This document shows, piece after piece, positions 6,723 through 57,225 of a stretch of 64,000 bases of DNA (its first letter is position 1; each line of letters opens with the position of its first letter). This stretch comes from Candidatus Gemmiger excrementigallinarum (GTDB taxonomy: Bacteria; Bacillota; Clostridia; Oscillospirales; Ruminococcaceae): positions 1 to 64,000 of the forward strand of contig DXBP01000050.1 of assembly GCA_019116445.1 (NCBI GenBank), written 5' to 3'. The notes beneath the pieces were generated by a model, which ran no database searches, was not told the origin of the DNA, and worked only from the letters and a program-made list of their open reading frames with translations. The position numbers and the translations under genes were made by a program.

Positions 6723-7537
6723 TGAAATTCCTGCGTCAGTTCACGGTGCTGGTACAGCGCAATCTGCGCCTGATCTGGAACGATAAACTCCTGCTGGCCA
6801 GTCTGGTGCTGCAGGCGCCGTTTATGGTGTTTGTCATCAAACTGGTGGTGGACCCCAACTGCTTCACCTCCAACCTGGTGAACGTGGGCAGCCGCACAGC
6901 GCTGTTTATCCTCAGTGCCATGGCGGCCTTTATGGGAACGCTGAACTCCTACCGGGAAATCTGCAAGGAGCGGGACATCATCCTCCGGGAAGCCTCGGTG
7001 GGGGTGAACCTGCTGGCGGTGGTACTCAGCAAAGCCTTTGTGCTGCTGGTCGTCGAAATCGTGCAGGCGGCCATCCTTACGTTTGGCTTTGTCAATGTGG
7101 TGCACATCCCGCAGAACCATCTGCTGTTTGAAACCAACCTCGAAATTTTTGTCACCGTGCTGCTTATGCTCTTTGCCTCCAGCGCCACCGGACTGCTGGT
7201 GTCCGCAATCTTCAAAAGCGGCGAAACGGCGATTTTGGTGGTCCTGGTCATCATGATCGGCCAGGTGGTCTTCAGCGGCATCATGTTCAACCTCACCGGG
7301 GTGGCCAACTCCATTGCCACCATCATCGTCTGCCGCTGGGGCATGGGCGCGCTGGGCGCTTCCACCGATCTGAACAGCCGTCTGGCCTGGCTCAAGGCGG
7401 GCTTCGATGGCCCTATGTATGACGCGACCATCGCCAACCTGCTCCACTGCTGGCAGATGCTGGGGCTCATCTCGGTGGTTTGCATCGTCGCCGCCTGGCT
7501 GGTGCTGCAGATCTCCTTTGACCGTAAAAAAGCATAA
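6704..7537 (+). CDS. ABC-2 type permease, partner of the FHA-ABC ATPase
   Basis: A 277-residue integral membrane protein with about six membrane segments. It opens with QFTVLVQRNLRLIWNDKLLL, the amphipathic entry helix usual in ABCG/ABC-2 permeases. The long second half contains hydrophobic stretches near residues 105-160 and 185-275. The start ATG 6704 lies inside the end of the ATPase gene. It is the last gene of the operon and is followed at once by a strong hairpin terminator. Together with the FHA-ABC protein it forms a complete exporter. The substrate is unknown; the ABCG subtype suggests a lipid, glycolipid or cell-envelope component. Confidence 0.85.
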   Translation: MQPSEVMKFLRQFTVLVQRNLRLIWNDKLLLASLVLQAPFMVFVIKLVVDPNCFTSNLVNVGSRTALFILSAMAAFMGTLNSYREICKERDIILREASVGVNLLAVVLSKAFVLLVVEIVQAAILTFGFVNVVHIPQNHLLFETNLEIFVTVLLMLFASSATGLLVSAIFKSGETAILVVLVIMIGQVVFSGIMFNLTGVANSIATIIVCRWGMGALGASTDLNSRLAWLKAGFDGPMYDATIANLLHCWQMLGLISVVCIVAAWLVLQISFDRKKA

Positions 7538-50851: not shown

Positions 50852-50952
50852 GTGCGCTGGCCAAGAGAACTAAAACCCAAACACGGAGCCGGATATTTCT
50901 CCGCTTTCAGGGAAGATCACCCGGTCCAACCCAAAAGAAAGGATGTAATGAA

Positions 50953-53900
50953 GTGAAAAGAGCCATCGCCACCTTGCTGAGCACCTGCATGATGTTCAGC
51001 ATCCTGGCCCAGGGCACGGCCGCCTTTGCGGAAGAATACGCCGAATCTGCGGTGCAGGCCGCAGTGACGGAAACGGATGAAGCACAGCCCCTGGAAATTG
51101 CTTCCTCCGAAACGGCGTCCCCCGACGCCGAGGAAAGTCTGCCTGAAGTACCGGCAGCGGAAGAGGAACTTCCGCCCATTGAACTTATGGCAGAGGAATC
51201 CCACGAAGACGAAGCCGCGGCAGAGAGTGCCCCGCAGGATACGGCGGAGGTTTCTGTCACGCTGCTGGCGGGTCTGCCGCTGCAGGGGGATGTGGAGTTC
51301 ACCGTCAGCCTGACGGGCCCGTCCACCCGCTCCGGAGAGATCACGCTGCAGGCAGCCGGCGGTACGGTGCCTGCTCAGCAGGAGATCCGCTTCCGGGACC
51401 TGCCCCGGGGCAGCTACACGCTGACGGTCAGCGGCAGCGGCTTTGCGGATTACACCCAGACCATTGAGGTAGAAAACCTGCTGTATTCGGTACAGCTGTA
51501 CACCGGCTTCCTGGCCGGATATACCTACACCGCGGATGATCTCCATCCCGGTGCGCTGCGCATCGGTGACGTGGACGGCAACGGCTCCCTCAGCGAGGGG
51601 GATACCACCGCACTGATCGATGCCCTTGAAGGGGAAAGCACCGACGCCGGCTACACCGTGGACCTGGACGGCAGCGGTACCGTGGACCTGGTGGACCTGC
51701 AGATGCTGGCCGCCAGCCTGGAAGAAACCCGGGACGGCGCCGCCTCGGTGCTGATCCGTGTGCCCGAAAGCCTGATGGAACTGGAAACGGAAGAAACCAC
51801 CCAAGTCGTCAGCGGCAGCCTGGACGATCTGCTCAGCGGTGCGGCGGCGGTGGAACTGAAACCCACCTCGGAGGAAGCTATCTCGGAGGATAACCCCGTC
51901 ACCGTCAGCTTTGACTTTGAGAAAGCGGCCAAGGAACCCCTGCCCCTGGCGGGCCTGGTGCTGCAGACCCCGCCCGCCGGTGATACCGCTGTCAACGGCG
52001 CCACCGTCACGGTGGAATACGAGGAATACGGCGAGACCAAAACCATGGACATCCCCGTCAGCAACGGGATGCTGGCCCGCTTTATGGGTGCAGCCACGGT
52101 GCAGCCCGACGGCTCCATCGAGGTCAACTTCGGCGCACAGATCGCCGTCAAGAAGGTCACCATCAAGATCACTTCGGTGTCTGGCGGCGGCAACCTGGCG
52201 GAGATCTCCAAGGTGGAATTCCTCAACGATATGGAATCCCGTATCCCGCCCCCGACGATGGACATTCCCACCGGACTGAAGGCTGTGCCCGAAAGCCAGG
52301 CCTTCACCCTGACCTGGGACCCGGCGGTAAACGTCACCGGGTACGAAGTTTCCATCACCTTCGGCGATGAGACCGAAACCGTGCGCACCGCCTCCAACAC
52401 CCTGGCGGTGAGCAGCTTCCGCGGTGAAAAACTGCAGAACAGCAAGACCTACACCGTCAAGGTGCAGTCGGTCAACGGTGAATGGCGCAGCGGCTACGGC
52501 GAGGCCATCACGGTGATCCCCAAAGCCGACAAACTGCCCGCCGCCCCCGACGCCCTGACACTGACCGGGCGCTTCCAGCGCATTGAAGCGTCCTGGAAGG
52601 ACATGAAGGATACCGAAACCTATAACGTCTACTATCGCAAACAGGGCGAAGGGGACTTCATCAAGGTCGAAGGGATTGCCAAGAACAGCTACACCATTCA
52701 GGGCCTGGAAAACAACACCCGCTATGAGGTGTATGTCACCGGCGTCAACGAGCTGGGCGAAGGCCCCGCCTCGCTGACCTCCACGGCATCCACGGCCAAC
52801 GTGAACCCGGTCAAGATGCCGGCCTACAAGCTGCTGAACACGCCGGGTGCCGCCGGCGAGGTCACAGCCCATATCCTGTCCATCACCCATAAGAACGGTT
52901 ATATGAAGGACAGCCCGCTGGATTCCGGCAACACCGCCTGGGGCGCTGTGGATAACGATTTCGCCTCCTGGTACGGTGTGGATGACTGGGACGACGGTGC
53001 CAGCTACAACCTCAACGACGGTCTGCGCGTCACCTTTGACGCCCGCTACCATATCGGCAGCATCTCGCTGACCCAGGCCGAGGACCGCAGTGGTTACGGC
53101 AAGGTCCGCCTGTTTGCTCGCGATGAGCAGGGCCGTGAATACCAGGTGCCGGGTGTGACCATCGTCCGGCATAACGACGGCAGCCGCAACTACTTTACCA
53201 TCAAGATCCCCGGTGGTGTCACCACCGATTATCTGCGCGTCTGCGTGGGGTATACCTACTGGGACAGCCCGGTTTCCATCTCCGAGATGCGGTTCTACGA
53301 GTACGACAGCCTGGAAGATGACATTCTGGCGCTGTATGCCGACGACCTCCACGTAACGCTGCAGGAGGAAGTGGACGAGGGCACCCTCGACGACCTGCAG
53401 ACCCGGCTGGACACCCCCGATGAGGCCAGCGGCGAACTGCACCCCGAACGTGTGGCGCTCCAGCGCGAACTGGATAACGCCCGCGGTCTGCTGGAAACCA
53501 CCCTCAACGATGTGGTGGAGGTACATACCACCATCACGGCCAAGAAGGACGGCCACCTGGGCTTCACCGGCCTGAATGCCTGGCAGCCCCTGGGTGTGAC
53601 GGCCGCCGCCGGCGACGAGATCGTCGTCTACGTAGGCAGCAACAATGTGGCCACCGGTTCCAATGCCTGGCTGCAGCTGGTTGCCACCCAGTACAACTCC
53701 GAATCGGGACAGGTGGTTTCCAGACCGATCCAGCTCAAGGTCGGCCGCAACGAGATCAGCATTCCCGAACTGGTTACCTTTGATGCCGAGCACGGCGGCG
53801 CCCTGTACGTGCAGTTCACCGGTGACGGTGCCAATGACCGTTACTCGGTGCGCGTCAGCGGCGGCGAAAAGATCCCCGTGCTGGATCTCTACGGCATTGA

Positions 53901-56184
53901 CGATCCCGCCGAGCGCAAAGCCCGTGTCACGGCCTATGTGGAAGCGATGGAAGCCTACGCCGCGGAACTGGAATCCCGGCATGGCGAGTTCCACGGCGAC
54001 CACGGCGCCTACGACGCCCAGACCTGCATCCTCAACACCACCGATGTGATGCTGGACCAGATGATGTACTCGGTACCGGTCAGCCAGCTGCTGGCGGGCC
54101 TGGGCGGCGGGTCCACGGCTGACAAAGCCGAGCGCCTGCTCAACTCCGTGGACGCTATGGACCAGATGATGACGCTGTTCTACCAGCATAAGGGCCTGAC
54201 CAATCTGGCGGGCGCCGGGGATAAGAACCGTCTGCCTTCCCAGCACCTGAACATCCGCTATATGCGTATGTTTGCCGGCGCGTTCATGTACGCGGCGGGC
54301 AACCACATTGGTATCGGCTGGGGTTCTGTACCCGGCCTGGCTGAAGGCAACCCCGTCGTTGTGAAGGAGGACGGCAGCTACCAGAGCGGCAACTTCTTCG
54401 GCTGGGGCATCGCCCATGAGATCGGCCACAACATCAACCAGGGCAGCTATGCCGTGGCGGAAGTTACCAACAACTATTTCTCACAGATTTCCCAGGCCAG
54501 CGAGGGCGTGCGCTTCGGCTACAACGCCATCTACAGCAAGGTAACCAGCGGCACCACCGGTCATTCCGGCGATGTGTTCACGCAGCTGGGACTCTACTGG
54601 CAGCTGCACCTTGCCTATGACCAGGGATACGAATACGAAATCTACGATAACTATACCGACCTTTTTGCAAACCGTTTCTATGCGCGGGTGGATACCTACG
54701 CCCGCAATCCCTCCCAGGCGCCGGCCCCGCAGGGCATCAAGCTGACGCTAAACGGCGATGCCGACCAGAACTTCATGCGTCTGGCCTCGGCGGCGGCCCA
54801 GAAGGACCTGACGGACTTCTTTGTGCGCTGGGGCATGGTTCCCGACGGAACCACGGCGGCCTATCTGGCACAGTTTGAGCCCGAGACCCGTGCGCTGTAC
54901 TACGGCAACGATGCCGCGCGCAACTACCGGTTTACCCATGATGACGGCACGAGCTTTGCGGGGCAGGCAGTCCTCACCGACGGCAACACCGCCGTGGTGG
55001 ATGACCGCACCCCCAACCAGGTCAACCTGACGCTGGCCTCCAACGCCGACAGCGGCCTGCTGCTGGGCTACGAGATCGCCCGCGTGACCTACGAGAACGG
55101 CCGTGCCAACACCGAAGTTGTGGGCTTCACCACCAACAGCACCTACACCGACACGGTCACCACCGTCAACAACCGTACGGTGGCCTATCAGATCACGGCC
55201 ATCGACCAGTTCCTCAACCGTTCCGAAACGCTGCAGCTGCCTGCGGTCAAGATCAGCCATGATGGCAGCTATGACAAGAGCCAGTGGACGGTGACTACCA
55301 ACATGACCTCGGCGGAGGATACGACCCCCGGCGCCGACGACCACGACCCCTGCGAACCCGAACCGGTCTCGGCCATTACCAAGGTCATCGACAACAACAA
55401 GGGCACTACCTATACCGGCAAGACTGCCAGCGGCGATGCCGTCATTACGCTGGACTTCGGCAAATCTCTGGCAGCGACGGGCTTCAAGTACACCGTCACC
55501 TCCGGTACCCCCATCGAACAGTACGAGATCCAGATCGCCACGTCTGATGGCAGCTGGAAGACGCTGGAATCCGGCACCTTTGCCGGCGGCGAAGTCAGCA
55601 CCGTCTACTTCCGCAACGAGAACAACGACCCCTGGGTCTGCACCTATGACGCGACGCAGCTGCGCCTGATCGTCAAGGCCCCGGCGGGTGTGGAAATCTC
55701 CATCAGCGAACTGGATGTGCTGGGCCCCACCGGTGACAACGTGGAACTGATGGAAAACGGCATCGGCACGCTGACCAAAGACTTTGTCTATGAGGAAAGT
55801 TCCGACCAGGCCATTCCGGAAGGCTCGCTGGTGTTCACCGGCAGCTACAAGGGCAACCCCGCGTACAACGTGGTGCTGCTCTACGACCAGGATGGCAACA
55901 TTGTGGGCGGTGTGAACGCCGACGGCGACATTGTGGCCCACCAGATCATTCTGGCCCCCGATCCGGCCGAAGGCCAGCTGGGTGAAGTCAGCGAAGGCTA
56001 CTGGGTCTACTGGATCGAACCTGCCGACCTGGAAGGCATGACCATGCCCGAGAGCGTGCGGGTGGAGCTGTACCGTGTGGACAACGCCACTACCAACGAA
56101 GGCCAGCGCCTGACCGGCGATACGCTGGCGGTAACGCTGCCCGAATCGCTGCCCCCGATCACGCTGGGCAGCCAGGCAGACTGA
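50953..56184 (+). CDS. Secreted multidomain M60-like metallopeptidase with dockerin-like module
   Basis: 1743 residues starting at GTG 50953. Order: signal peptide (1-26); Glu/Ala-rich linker (30-95); beta domain (96-195); dockerin-like module (about 202-255) with two calcium loops, DVDGNGSLSEGD (206-217) and DLDGSGTVDLVD (237-248); beta domain (265-420); two fibronectin III-like domains (about 435-525 and 530-615); a discoidin/CBM32-like domain (about 625-790); the M60-like peptidase with HEIGHNINQ (His1155, Glu1156, His1159) and the third ligand region AEVTNN (Glu1170); another discoidin-like domain (about 1430-1590) and a final beta domain. M60/enhancin-type peptidases cut mucin-like glycoproteins. 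No C-terminal anchor is present, so retention may depend on the dockerin. The next gene encodes a membrane protein with a cohesin-like domain. Confidence 0.88.
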   Translation: MKRAIATLLSTCMMFSILAQGTAAFAEEYAESAVQAAVTETDEAQPLEIASSETASPDAEESLPEVPAAEEELPPIELMAEESHEDEAAAESAPQDTAEVSVTLLAGLPLQGDVEFTVSLTGPSTRSGEITLQAAGGTVPAQQEIRFRDLPRGSYTLTVSGSGFADYTQTIEVENLLYSVQLYTGFLAGYTYTADDLHPGALRIGDVDGNGSLSEGDTTALIDALEGESTDAGYTVDLDGSGTVDLVDLQMLAASLEETRDGAASVLIRVPESLMELETEETTQVVSGSLDDLLSGAAAVELKPTSEEAISEDNPVTVSFDFEKAAKEPLPLAGLVLQTPPAGDTAVNGATVTVEYEEYGETKTMDIPVSNGMLARFMGAATVQPDGSIEVNFGAQIAVKKVTIKITSVSGGGNLAEISKVEFLNDMESRIPPPTMDIPTGLKAVPESQAFTLTWDPAVNVTGYEVSITFGDETETVRTASNTLAVSSFRGEKLQNSKTYTVKVQSVNGEWRSGYGEAITVIPKADKLPAAPDALTLTGRFQRIEASWKDMKDTETYNVYYRKQGEGDFIKVEGIAKNSYTIQGLENNTRYEVYVTGVNELGEGPASLTSTASTANVNPVKMPAYKLLNTPGAAGEVTAHILSITHKNGYMKDSPLDSGNTAWGAVDNDFASWYGVDDWDDGASYNLNDGLRVTFDARYHIGSISLTQAEDRSGYGKVRLFARDEQGREYQVPGVTIVRHNDGSRNYFTIKIPGGVTTDYLRVCVGYTYWDSPVSISEMRFYEYDSLEDDILALYADDLHVTLQEEVDEGTLDDLQTRLDTPDEASGELHPERVALQRELDNARGLLETTLNDVVEVHTTITAKKDGHLGFTGLNAWQPLGVTAAAGDEIVVYVGSNNVATGSNAWLQLVATQYNSESGQVVSRPIQLKVGRNEISIPELVTFDAEHGGALYVQFTGDGANDRYSVRVSGGEKIPVLDLYGIDDPAERKARVTAYVEAMEAYAAELESRHGEFHGDHGAYDAQTCILNTTDVMLDQMMYSVPVSQLLAGLGGGSTADKAERLLNSVDAMDQMMTLFYQHKGLTNLAGAGDKNRLPSQHLNIRYMRMFAGAFMYAAGNHIGIGWGSVPGLAEGNPVVVKEDGSYQSGNFFGWGIAHEIGHNINQGSYAVAEVTNNYFSQISQASEGVRFGYNAIYSKVTSGTTGHSGDVFTQLGLYWQLHLAYDQGYEYEIYDNYTDLFANRFYARVDTYARNPSQAPAPQGIKLTLNGDADQNFMRLASAAAQKDLTDFFVRWGMVPDGTTAAYLAQFEPETRALYYGNDAARNYRFTHDDGTSFAGQAVLTDGNTAVVDDRTPNQVNLTLASNADSGLLLGYEIARVTYENGRANTEVVGFTTNSTYTDTVTTVNNRTVAYQITAIDQFLNRSETLQLPAVKISHDGSYDKSQWTVTTNMTSAEDTTPGADDHDPCEPEPVSAITKVIDNNKGTTYTGKTASGDAVITLDFGKSLAATGFKYTVTSGTPIEQYEIQIATSDGSWKTLESGTFAGGEVSTVYFRNENNDPWVCTYDATQLRLIVKAPAGVEISISELDVLGPTGDNVELMENGIGTLTKDFVYEESSDQAIPEGSLVFTGSYKGNPAYNVVLLYDQDGNIVGGVNADGDIVAHQIILAPDPAEGQLGEVSEGYWVYWIEPADLEGMTMPESVRVELYRVDNATTNEGQRLTGDTLAVTLPESLPPITLGSQAD

Positions 56185-56203
56185 GCAATACAAGGAGACT
56201 ACC

Positions 56204-57133
56204 ATGAAGAAACTACTGGCCACCCTGCTGCTGGGCATGGCCCTGGCCGTGGCGGCGCTGCCCGCTGCGGCCCAGGAGTCCGGCAACACGGTGACAATGA
56301 CGGCCAACGCCAACGGCGCGGCCGTAAGCCTGGCGCTGCCCAAAGAAACAGCCCAGGGAGTCAAGGCGCTGCGCCTGAGCTTTGCGGTGGAAAGCACCGA
56401 GCCCATTGATGCGCAGTTTGACTTTGACAGTGCGCTGCCCGGCAGCGTGCAGCAGTGCCGCTACAATCCGGCCACCGGGCAGATGAATGTCTATGTGGCG
56501 GGCGGTACCGACCTGTTCACGGATGGTACAGCCTCTTTGGGCAACATCCTTCTGGATGTCCCCGCGGGCAGCACGGCCACCGTGCGCCTGGTGGAGGACT
56601 CGTTGGAACTGGTCAACGGTGCCTTCGGCAAGACCCAGGCGCCCTCTACCGGTGCGGTATCGGTGGATGTGACGGTGGACGGCAATACGCCGGCCCCCAC
56701 TCCGGAAGCCACCCAGTCCCCGTCCGGAGGTTCCTCCGGTTCTCAGGATCAGAATTCTGCGGCGCAGAGCCATCAGAATACCCCCACGCCCACCCCGGCC
56801 GTGACTACCACGCCGGTGTCCACGGCTGCCCCGTCTGAAACGGTGCAGCAGACCACCGCGCAGGGCAGCACCGGCGGCAAAAAGCCTGCGGGCAGCAGCC
56901 AGTCGGGTGCTGCCTCCCAGGCAACTCCCGAGCCTTCGGAAGAACCCCAGGCCAGCGCGACGCCGGCCCCCACCGAAGCCCCCCAGGATCCGACCGCTAC
57001 TGCCACGCCCGAACAGGCACAGGCGGAATCCACCCCGGCGATGAACCCGCTGCTGGTGGTGCTGATCGTGGTGGCCTGCCTGGCGGCGGCCGTCCTCATC
57101 GGCGTTGCCGTGCTCCGCTTCCGCAGCCGGTAA
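56204..57133 (+). CDS. Membrane-anchored protein with cohesin-like domain
   Basis: 309 residues. Signal peptide 1-24. Residues about 28-145 form a beta-sandwich that follows the cohesin pattern: VTMTANANGAAVSLALP at the start and a late DGTASLGNILLDVPAGSTAT block, like the 'g.latl.f.v..g' ending of cohesins. Then comes a Pro/Thr/Ser/Gln-rich linker (150-278), long enough to cross the wall. One membrane segment (about 283-303) precedes the basic end RFRSR. It lies 19 bases after the dockerin-bearing peptidase, in the same operon. The likely role is to hold that peptidase on the cell. Cohesin assignment is by pattern; another Ig-like sandwich is possible. Confidence 0.7.
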   Translation: MKKLLATLLLGMALAVAALPAAAQESGNTVTMTANANGAAVSLALPKETAQGVKALRLSFAVESTEPIDAQFDFDSALPGSVQQCRYNPATGQMNVYVAGGTDLFTDGTASLGNILLDVPAGSTATVRLVEDSLELVNGAFGKTQAPSTGAVSVDVTVDGNTPAPTPEATQSPSGGSSGSQDQNSAAQSHQNTPTPTPAVTTTPVSTAAPSETVQQTTAQGSTGGKKPAGSSQSGAASQATPEPSEEPQASATPAPTEAPQDPTATATPEQAQAESTPAMNPLLVVLIVVACLAAAVLIGVAVLRFRSR

Positions 57134-57181: not shown

Positions 57182-57225
57182 CACACCGCCCTCCCGTTGC
57201 AAGCCGGGAGGGCGGTGTGCTTTTT
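57182..57225. terminator. Bidirectional terminator after the peptidase operon
   Basis: CACACCGCCCTCCCG pairs with CGGGAGGGCGGTGTG around 7 bases, followed by CTTTTTG. It also serves the converging gene at 57238. Confidence 0.85.

Follow-up and report, generated by a model that had tools for sequence, protein, structure and literature searches.

How does a secreted peptidase on which no anchor is found stay with the cell that makes it? This question is raised by a two-gene locus in a 64,000-nucleotide (nt) stretch of Candidatus Gemmiger excrementigallinarum DNA (contig DXBP01000050.1, positions 1 to 64,000; the window, hereafter), where a gene for an M60 metallopeptidase with an N-terminal docking module is followed by a gene for a small protein, its partner. 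An earlier note made from the letters alone had described both genes, 19 nt apart, and had proposed that they form a minimal, cell-attached device built on a cohesin and a dockerin; both open reading frames and the gap are present. From what we observed directly, namely predicted folds, gene linkage, anchor swapping, fusions and genome-wide exclusivity, we consider it likely that the pair is a surface-display unit of one enzyme and one receptor, comparable to the type II anchoring step of cellulosomes. The features on which this reading is built are as follows.

50953..56184, + strand: M60 metallopeptidase gene, open reading frame with GTG start, 1743 residues, secreted, own anchor not found
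51247..51540, + strand: X-module-like domain of Ig/transthyretin type, residues 99-196, modelled jointly with the dockerin
51565..51720, + strand: dockerin, residues 205-256, from PF00404, the loop pattern and Foldseek
51568-51603 and 51661-51696, + strand: calcium loops of the dockerin
56204..57133, + strand: partner gene, open reading frame with ATG start, 309 residues, secreted, membrane-anchored protein
56273..56680, + strand: cohesin-fold domain of the partner, residues 24-159, from the AlphaFold2 model and Foldseek
56681..57043, + strand: Pro/Thr/Ser-rich linker, from sequence
57044..57130, + strand: C-terminal transmembrane segment and basic tail, from sequence and hydropathy

Predicted folds of the docking module and of the partner

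The two EF-type calcium loops that the earlier note had read in dockerin arrangement are present, loop 1 being DVDGNGSLSEGD (residues 206-217) and loop 2 DLDGSGTVDLVD (residues 237-248). The PF00404 Dockerin_1 profile matches residues 205-256 with 22.1 bits in the whole-protein scan, just below the cut-off of 22.9, and rises above it when the region is scanned alone (26.1 bits) and in the genome scan (28.3 bits). Among the 56 aligned sequences, 49, the window included, have canonical residues at the four tested positions of both loops, indicating that the dockerin is beyond chance; loop 1 deviates in the remaining seven and loop 2 is canonical in all 56. While the dockerin itself is real, the note was wrong in taking it for a bare one. 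In an AlphaFold2 model of peptidase residues 99-262 (mffbee308f907; 56-sequence alignment, pLDDT 93.1 and pTM 0.87 over both domains), an X module is packed alongside it, and a Foldseek search of the PDB at E ≤ 1e-3 returned nine matches, all of them chains of type II cohesin-X-dockerin structures with both modules aligned (TMq 0.51-0.57). Nothing under 1e-3 was matched in the viral fold library. The sequence profile of the X-dockerin also reaches solved X-dockerins, cellulase dockerins and the hyaluronidase module 2jnk, and CarboxypepD_reg is matched at E ≤ 0.01 in 51 of the 56 X-module sequences, the window sequence lying under its cut-off. As modelled, the N-terminal module of the peptidase belongs with the X-dockerins by which cellulosomes are anchored, and its N-terminal position, which had seemed unusual, is real and conserved among relatives. 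A natural half-dockerin is found in the M60 of Amedibacillus dolichus (L096:9773-14968), which has lost the first EF loop and keeps loop 2 and the partner gene.

At the other end of the peptidase, the earlier note had seen no anchor. Consistent with this, none of 94 M60 frames longer than 1200 residues has a C-terminal transmembrane anchor by a simple hydropathy cut over the last 150 residues, and an LPxTG-like string occurs within the same stretch in one of the 94.

Inspected by eye, the partner begins with what resembles a signal peptide, has a low-complexity linker and ends in a hydrophobic segment with RFRSR after it. AlphaFold2 predicts its N-terminal domain as a single beta-sandwich (55-sequence alignment, pLDDT 93.7, pTM 0.87), so that the layout given in the note, with signal peptide, beta-sandwich, linker and membrane anchor, is recovered by eye and model together. 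Foldseek against the PDB at E ≤ 1e-3 gave 18 matches, of which 16 are cohesins (TMq 0.52-0.63), including 2jh2 and 2vo8 of Clostridium perfringens; the other two are the adhesin domains 1amx and 4tsh. Because 16 of the 18 are cohesins, we read the domain as a cohesin fold with clear divergence. The PF00963 cohesin profile is not matched in the window protein or in its own genome, and we therefore use the term cohesin-fold domain rather than assigning it to PF00963; for the partner protein as a whole, Pfam and NCBIfam gave no match of note. Thus the cohesin-like fold on which the note had staked its idea is predicted, while of the two Pfam families it had named, PF00404 is found in the peptidase region and PF00963 is not matched in the partner. 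The partner of one relative (L020:10385-11503) has an extra helical-looking stretch between the cohesin-fold domain and the linker, which we take, tentatively, to resemble a FIVAR module.

Linkage, anchors and exclusivity of the pair across genomes

A GTDB-based genome collection scanned with M60 peptides yielded 357 relatives, and the linkage counts come from the best 80 of these 357, which include Gemmiger, Faecalibacterium, Fournierella, Anaerofilum, Ruminococcus, many Lachnospiraceae and Erysipelotrichaceae as well as Gordonibacter and Eggerthella of the Actinomycetota. The loci were chosen by M60 peptides alone, and the partner-domain profile finds exactly one copy in each of the 80. The partner is the next gene after the M60 gene on the same strand in 78 and is fused to the M60 C-terminus in two; the gap between the genes ranges from -20 to 276 nt, with a median of 33 (79 measured, window included). 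An N-terminal dockerin is matched at i-E < 1e-5 in 77 of the 80 M60 frames, and the three exceptions are two frames truncated by the contig start (L066 and L118) and L096, which lacks only the first loop.

Within the family sample of 197 genomes, the M60 query matches 22 and leaves 175 unmatched; 15 of the matches are real M60 and seven are fibronectin regions only. All 15 M60 genomes carry the pair, eight with close sequences and seven at 31-34% identity, and for each of these seven distant M60s the dockerin is weaker and the anchored partner larger. At class level, PF13402 matched 25 of 291 genomes and 18 regions were fetched, with weak matches and one same-genus place (G437) left out. Nine M60 genes of this set (L200-L208) have an N-terminal dockerin by pattern, L202 with one loop only, and Pfam agrees with the pattern for L208, the sole class-set dockerin so scanned. 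All eight of the dockerin-bearing M60 genes with a readable downstream region have a partner, as the next gene in seven and as a fusion in one (L208). In nine class-set M60 genes without a dockerin pair that were checked by pattern and by eye, a partner was found among the neighbours in none. L199, in which the HExGH motif was not seen, and L205, which ends inside the M60 domain, were both uncounted.

Within this M60 clade, the partner is present at 99 of 99 readable loci inspected, adjacent in 96 and fused in three; this count takes in the window and the family loci L018, L021 and L023, which lie outside the 80. The partner-domain profile A3 finds only the own genome among the 291 class genomes. 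Too diverged to be picked up by this profile, the class-level partners were identified by position, group-level profile comparison and eye, the L207 partner and the fused L208 domain being recognised by eye within their group. Profile comparison joins the three partner groups at 55-97% probability, with controls of other domains below 6%. Alignment A3 consists of the window and 54 of the 80 loci and alignment A4 of the window and 55, after contig-cut, long and near-duplicate rows were removed by hand. Of 30 fetched cohesin loci, six contained stops and were discarded, and the other 24, badly cut ones included (one empty), were used in one profile comparison; later comparisons of partner and cohesin used only the 12 cohesins longer than 110 residues. 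Six of 14 search matches covered the low-complexity linker alone and were set aside. The M60 gene of G031 (L018:4631-9918) is broken near 7490 into two open frames that overlap, through either a mutation or an error of assembly; the partner frame is open.

The way in which the partner is anchored differs among relatives. A simple script assigned anchor classes to 81 partners (80 loci and the window), whose C-termini comprise a transmembrane segment alone in 37, an xTG[DN] motif with a transmembrane segment in 20 and LPxTG with a transmembrane segment in five; a further eight are contig-cut and two are fused. S-layer homology (SLH) domains, well above cut-off, form the end of four of seven class-level partners. 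The receptor-like domain is thus kept while the anchor is exchanged, and this is the behaviour expected of a tether. A long Lys/Arg-rich tail follows the transmembrane segment in the Lachnospiraceae-type partners of L071, L073, L074, L081, L083, L084 and L124.

The own genome, which is 83% complete, contains one PF00404 match at E ≤ 10 and one copy of the partner domain; PF00963 and PF00404 searches of it revealed neither a scaffoldin with several cohesins nor many dockerin enzymes. Of the 15 pair-bearing family genomes, 12 have exactly one PF00404 match at E ≤ 1e-3, by position the dockerin of the M60 itself, and two have none, and neither a second dockerin nor a Pfam cohesin was found in these 14. 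The odd one, G126, contains 82 dockerins and six Pfam cohesin matches. Since 14 of the 15 genomes are without a Pfam cohesin, no other known kind of receptor for the dockerin was found there. The view of the earlier note that the device is self-contained, and not a large cellulosome, is supported in that neither a second dockerin nor a Pfam cohesin was found in the own genome and in 13 of 14 relatives. In G126, a few genes beyond the M60 pair, a gene resembling, by eye, that of a radical SAM enzyme precedes one for a small secreted protein ending in a dockerin (43.9 bits; L023:11594-13188).

Fused forms were found at three loci (L136:9869-16150, L139:9875-16168 and L208:4373-10651), where the cohesin-fold domain lies on the C-terminal side of the M60. 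In all three, the X-dockerin and the cohesin-fold domain are near opposite ends of the peptidase. L136 and L139 have an added canonical C-terminal dockerin (PF00404, E 1.7e-9), and each of their genomes contains two matches to the Pfam cohesin at E ≤ 1e-3. One may speculate that a hidden cohesin family missed by Pfam serves widespread one-enzyme display in gut bacteria, with fused forms chaining head to tail or closing on themselves and with L136 and L139 perhaps hanging on a scaffold by the C-terminal dockerin; we regard this wider picture as rather unlikely.

A proposed surface-display mechanism and its alternatives

A docking module on the enzyme and a matching receptor fold on its anchored neighbour make it probable that the two proteins lock together and so keep the enzyme on the cell surface. 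The peptidase would be secreted without an anchor of its own, and its N-terminal X-dockerin would dock into the partner's cohesin-fold domain, calcium presumably being involved. The partner itself would be fixed in the membrane through its C-terminal segment, with sortase-type or S-layer anchors serving as well among relatives. The M60 core with its galactose-binding-like and fibronectin domains would then be displayed at the surface on a flexible linker, where it would most likely cut O-glycosylated host proteins such as mucin. Members of the M60 family are known to act on mucin-like proteins. That the substrate is mucin or another O-glycoprotein is likely from membership in this family (PMC3267712). 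The physical binding, its dependence on calcium and the substrate are what we infer here; the predicted cohesin fold, the X-dockerin fold and the exclusivity of the pair support the minimal cell-attached device of the earlier note.

Several results weigh against this reading. The Pfam dockerin is matched at E ≤ 0.01 in 44 of the 56 sequences and is weak in L053 and L056 (i-E 0.04-0.05). On the partner side, PF00963 matches one of 55 aligned sequences, at E 0.013; hhalign gives the partner domain at most 18% probability against true cohesins (other domains below 6%), and a profile search of the partner domain did not find a PDB cohesin, so that the attempt to prove cohesin kinship by sequence alone failed in Pfam, profile-profile and PDB profile searches. 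Nine of the 81 partners have no obvious C-terminal transmembrane segment. Dockerin-bearing M60s form one clade in the M60 tree with support 93 (quick method, midpoint root, some long branches; five family loci left out, four of them duplicates of named loci), and the pairing is therefore a single old event that has since been retained, while the fusions need at least two events. A Fisher test of dockerin against partner was left unused, its rows sharing one clade and one of the ten no-dockerin genes, the second M60 of L210, being unchecked. Coevolution, lastly, does not single out the dockerin as the contact: in a mirror-tree analysis of 76 of the 81 pairs its partial r is 0.08, the highest value being that of FN1 (0.24), and by mutual information (Neff 63) it contains 10 of the top 200 couplings against 7.5 expected. 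We regard both tests as uninformative about a dockerin contact.

The coevolution results would fit the possibility that the partner anchors the enzyme through another M60 domain, for example the conserved C-terminal one, with the X-dockerin as a calcium-stabilised structural spacer. The C-terminal domain is indeed well conserved (mean distance 0.43), and L096 keeps its partner despite losing the first EF loop; however, it retains loop 2, which is canonical in every aligned sequence, and an X-dockerin with a cohesin fold is a known interacting combination, and we consider the spacer explanation very improbable. The beta-sandwich of the partner might instead bind host matrix or glycoprotein, making it a surface adhesin that is co-expressed with the peptidase without holding it. 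The long linker would suit an adhesin, and the two adhesin domains among the 18 fold matches (1amx being collagen-binding), with further adhesins lower in the ranking, point the same way; against them stand the 16 cohesins. With an adhesin, 14 of 15 genomes would also have no receptor of a known kind for the dockerin, the dockerin-less M60s that were checked have no partner, and in the fusions the partner domain sits on the enzyme itself, all of which makes this explanation improbable. The position of a small secreted gene directly downstream of a protease gene would also fit a chaperone or inhibitor that is bound to the membrane and protects the peptidase while it is being secreted, yet the predicted fold is cohesin-like and the S-layer and sortase-type anchors of relatives put the partner on the outer surface; we give this explanation hardly any credence. 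The surface-display unit, with docking of the X-dockerin into the cohesin-fold domain, is thus the explanation that we prefer.

Other features of the locus and comparison with known systems

The remaining features of the locus are listed below.

52258..52806, + strand: two fibronectin type III domains, limits approximate (PF00041, two stretches, 4.2e-16)
54352..54834, + strand: M60 catalytic core (PF13402, 44.5 bits against a cut-off of 25.8)
54415-54462, + strand: zinc motif HExxHx10E, inside the M60 core
55381..55611, + strand: F5/8 type C-like (CBM32-like) domain (PF00754/PF22633, E about 1e-4, below cut-off)
56185..56203, + strand: intergenic gap of 19 nt with the ribosome-binding site AAGGAG at 56192-56197
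57182..57219, + strand: terminator-like hairpin of 15 pairs, after the gene pair

M60 peptidases follow a spacing rule for HExxH and a downstream Glu. The zinc motif of the window protein is HEIGHNINQGSYAVAE, in which HEIGHNINQ, already picked out by the earlier note, starts at residue 1155; H1155, E1156, H1159 and E1170 are invariant in seven aligned sequences. Solved sequence relatives of the M60 protein include entries named ZmpC and ZmpA glycopeptidase. The last M60 domain (residues about 1591-1740, window 55723-56172) has no Pfam name in the whole-protein scan and ranks third in conservation among 12 segments; the mean distance of the catalytic core is 0.37. The short gap with its AAGGAG is consistent with a single transcript for both genes. 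Terminator-like sites (six against 6.3 expected from shuffles) and promoter-like sites (four against 1.5 +/- 1.3 in shuffles) are near chance in the region. Two long open frames lie antisense to the M60 gene, at 50917-54429 (1170 residues) and 54748-56406 (552 residues), both on the - strand, and G+C-rich codons probably account for them.

Among published systems, the Limousia mucinolysome (PMC12997984) comes closest; it likewise involves gut Clostridia with dockerin-bearing peptidases in a mucin setting and a sortase-anchored scaffoldin. In contrast to the several scaffoldins, some with multiple cohesins, and the many dockerin enzymes described there, the own genome shows a single dockerin match, alongside a single cohesin-fold domain. 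The same paper, referring to Adams 2008, describes cohesins and dockerins on glycoside hydrolases of C. perfringens. These are similar in being single cohesin modules outside cellulosomes, and 2jh2 and 2vo8 are among the fold matches of the partner; however, they are on proteins with a glycoside hydrolase domain, whereas here the domain is on a non-catalytic anchor. In Clostridium thermocellum, the CipA dockerin II ties the cellulosome to the cell together with SdbA through SLH anchoring (PMC5817068). Our pair resembles this type II step in having the X-dockerin on the secreted partner, the cohesin fold on the surface-anchored one and, in some relatives, SLH anchors; it differs in that the X-dockerin is N-terminal and on an enzyme rather than on a scaffoldin, and that a single cohesin-fold domain, unrecognised by Pfam, is used with the scaffold omitted. 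A 2012 survey of M60-like (PF13402) peptidases describes catalytic domains with CBM32- and fn3-type neighbours as found here, although Dockerin type 1 is rare in it (2 of 415 proteins) and its main text does not contain the word cohesin (PMC3267712). We did not find an account of this peptidase-anchor pair in the open-access literature, with most subscription papers and preprints being outside that coverage.

The pairing of cohesin and dockerin is usually viewed as what holds large multi-enzyme complexes together. In the gut Bacillota and Eggerthellaceae studied here, it appears reduced to one enzyme and one anchor, with a receptor half that escapes the Pfam cohesin profile. As a small, naturally matched system, the pair would lend itself to binding studies and to asking about the origin of the type II anchoring step. 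If our reading is true, a mucin-family peptidase would be kept on the surface of many gut species by means that annotation has missed, and this would bear on who cuts the mucus and who keeps the products.

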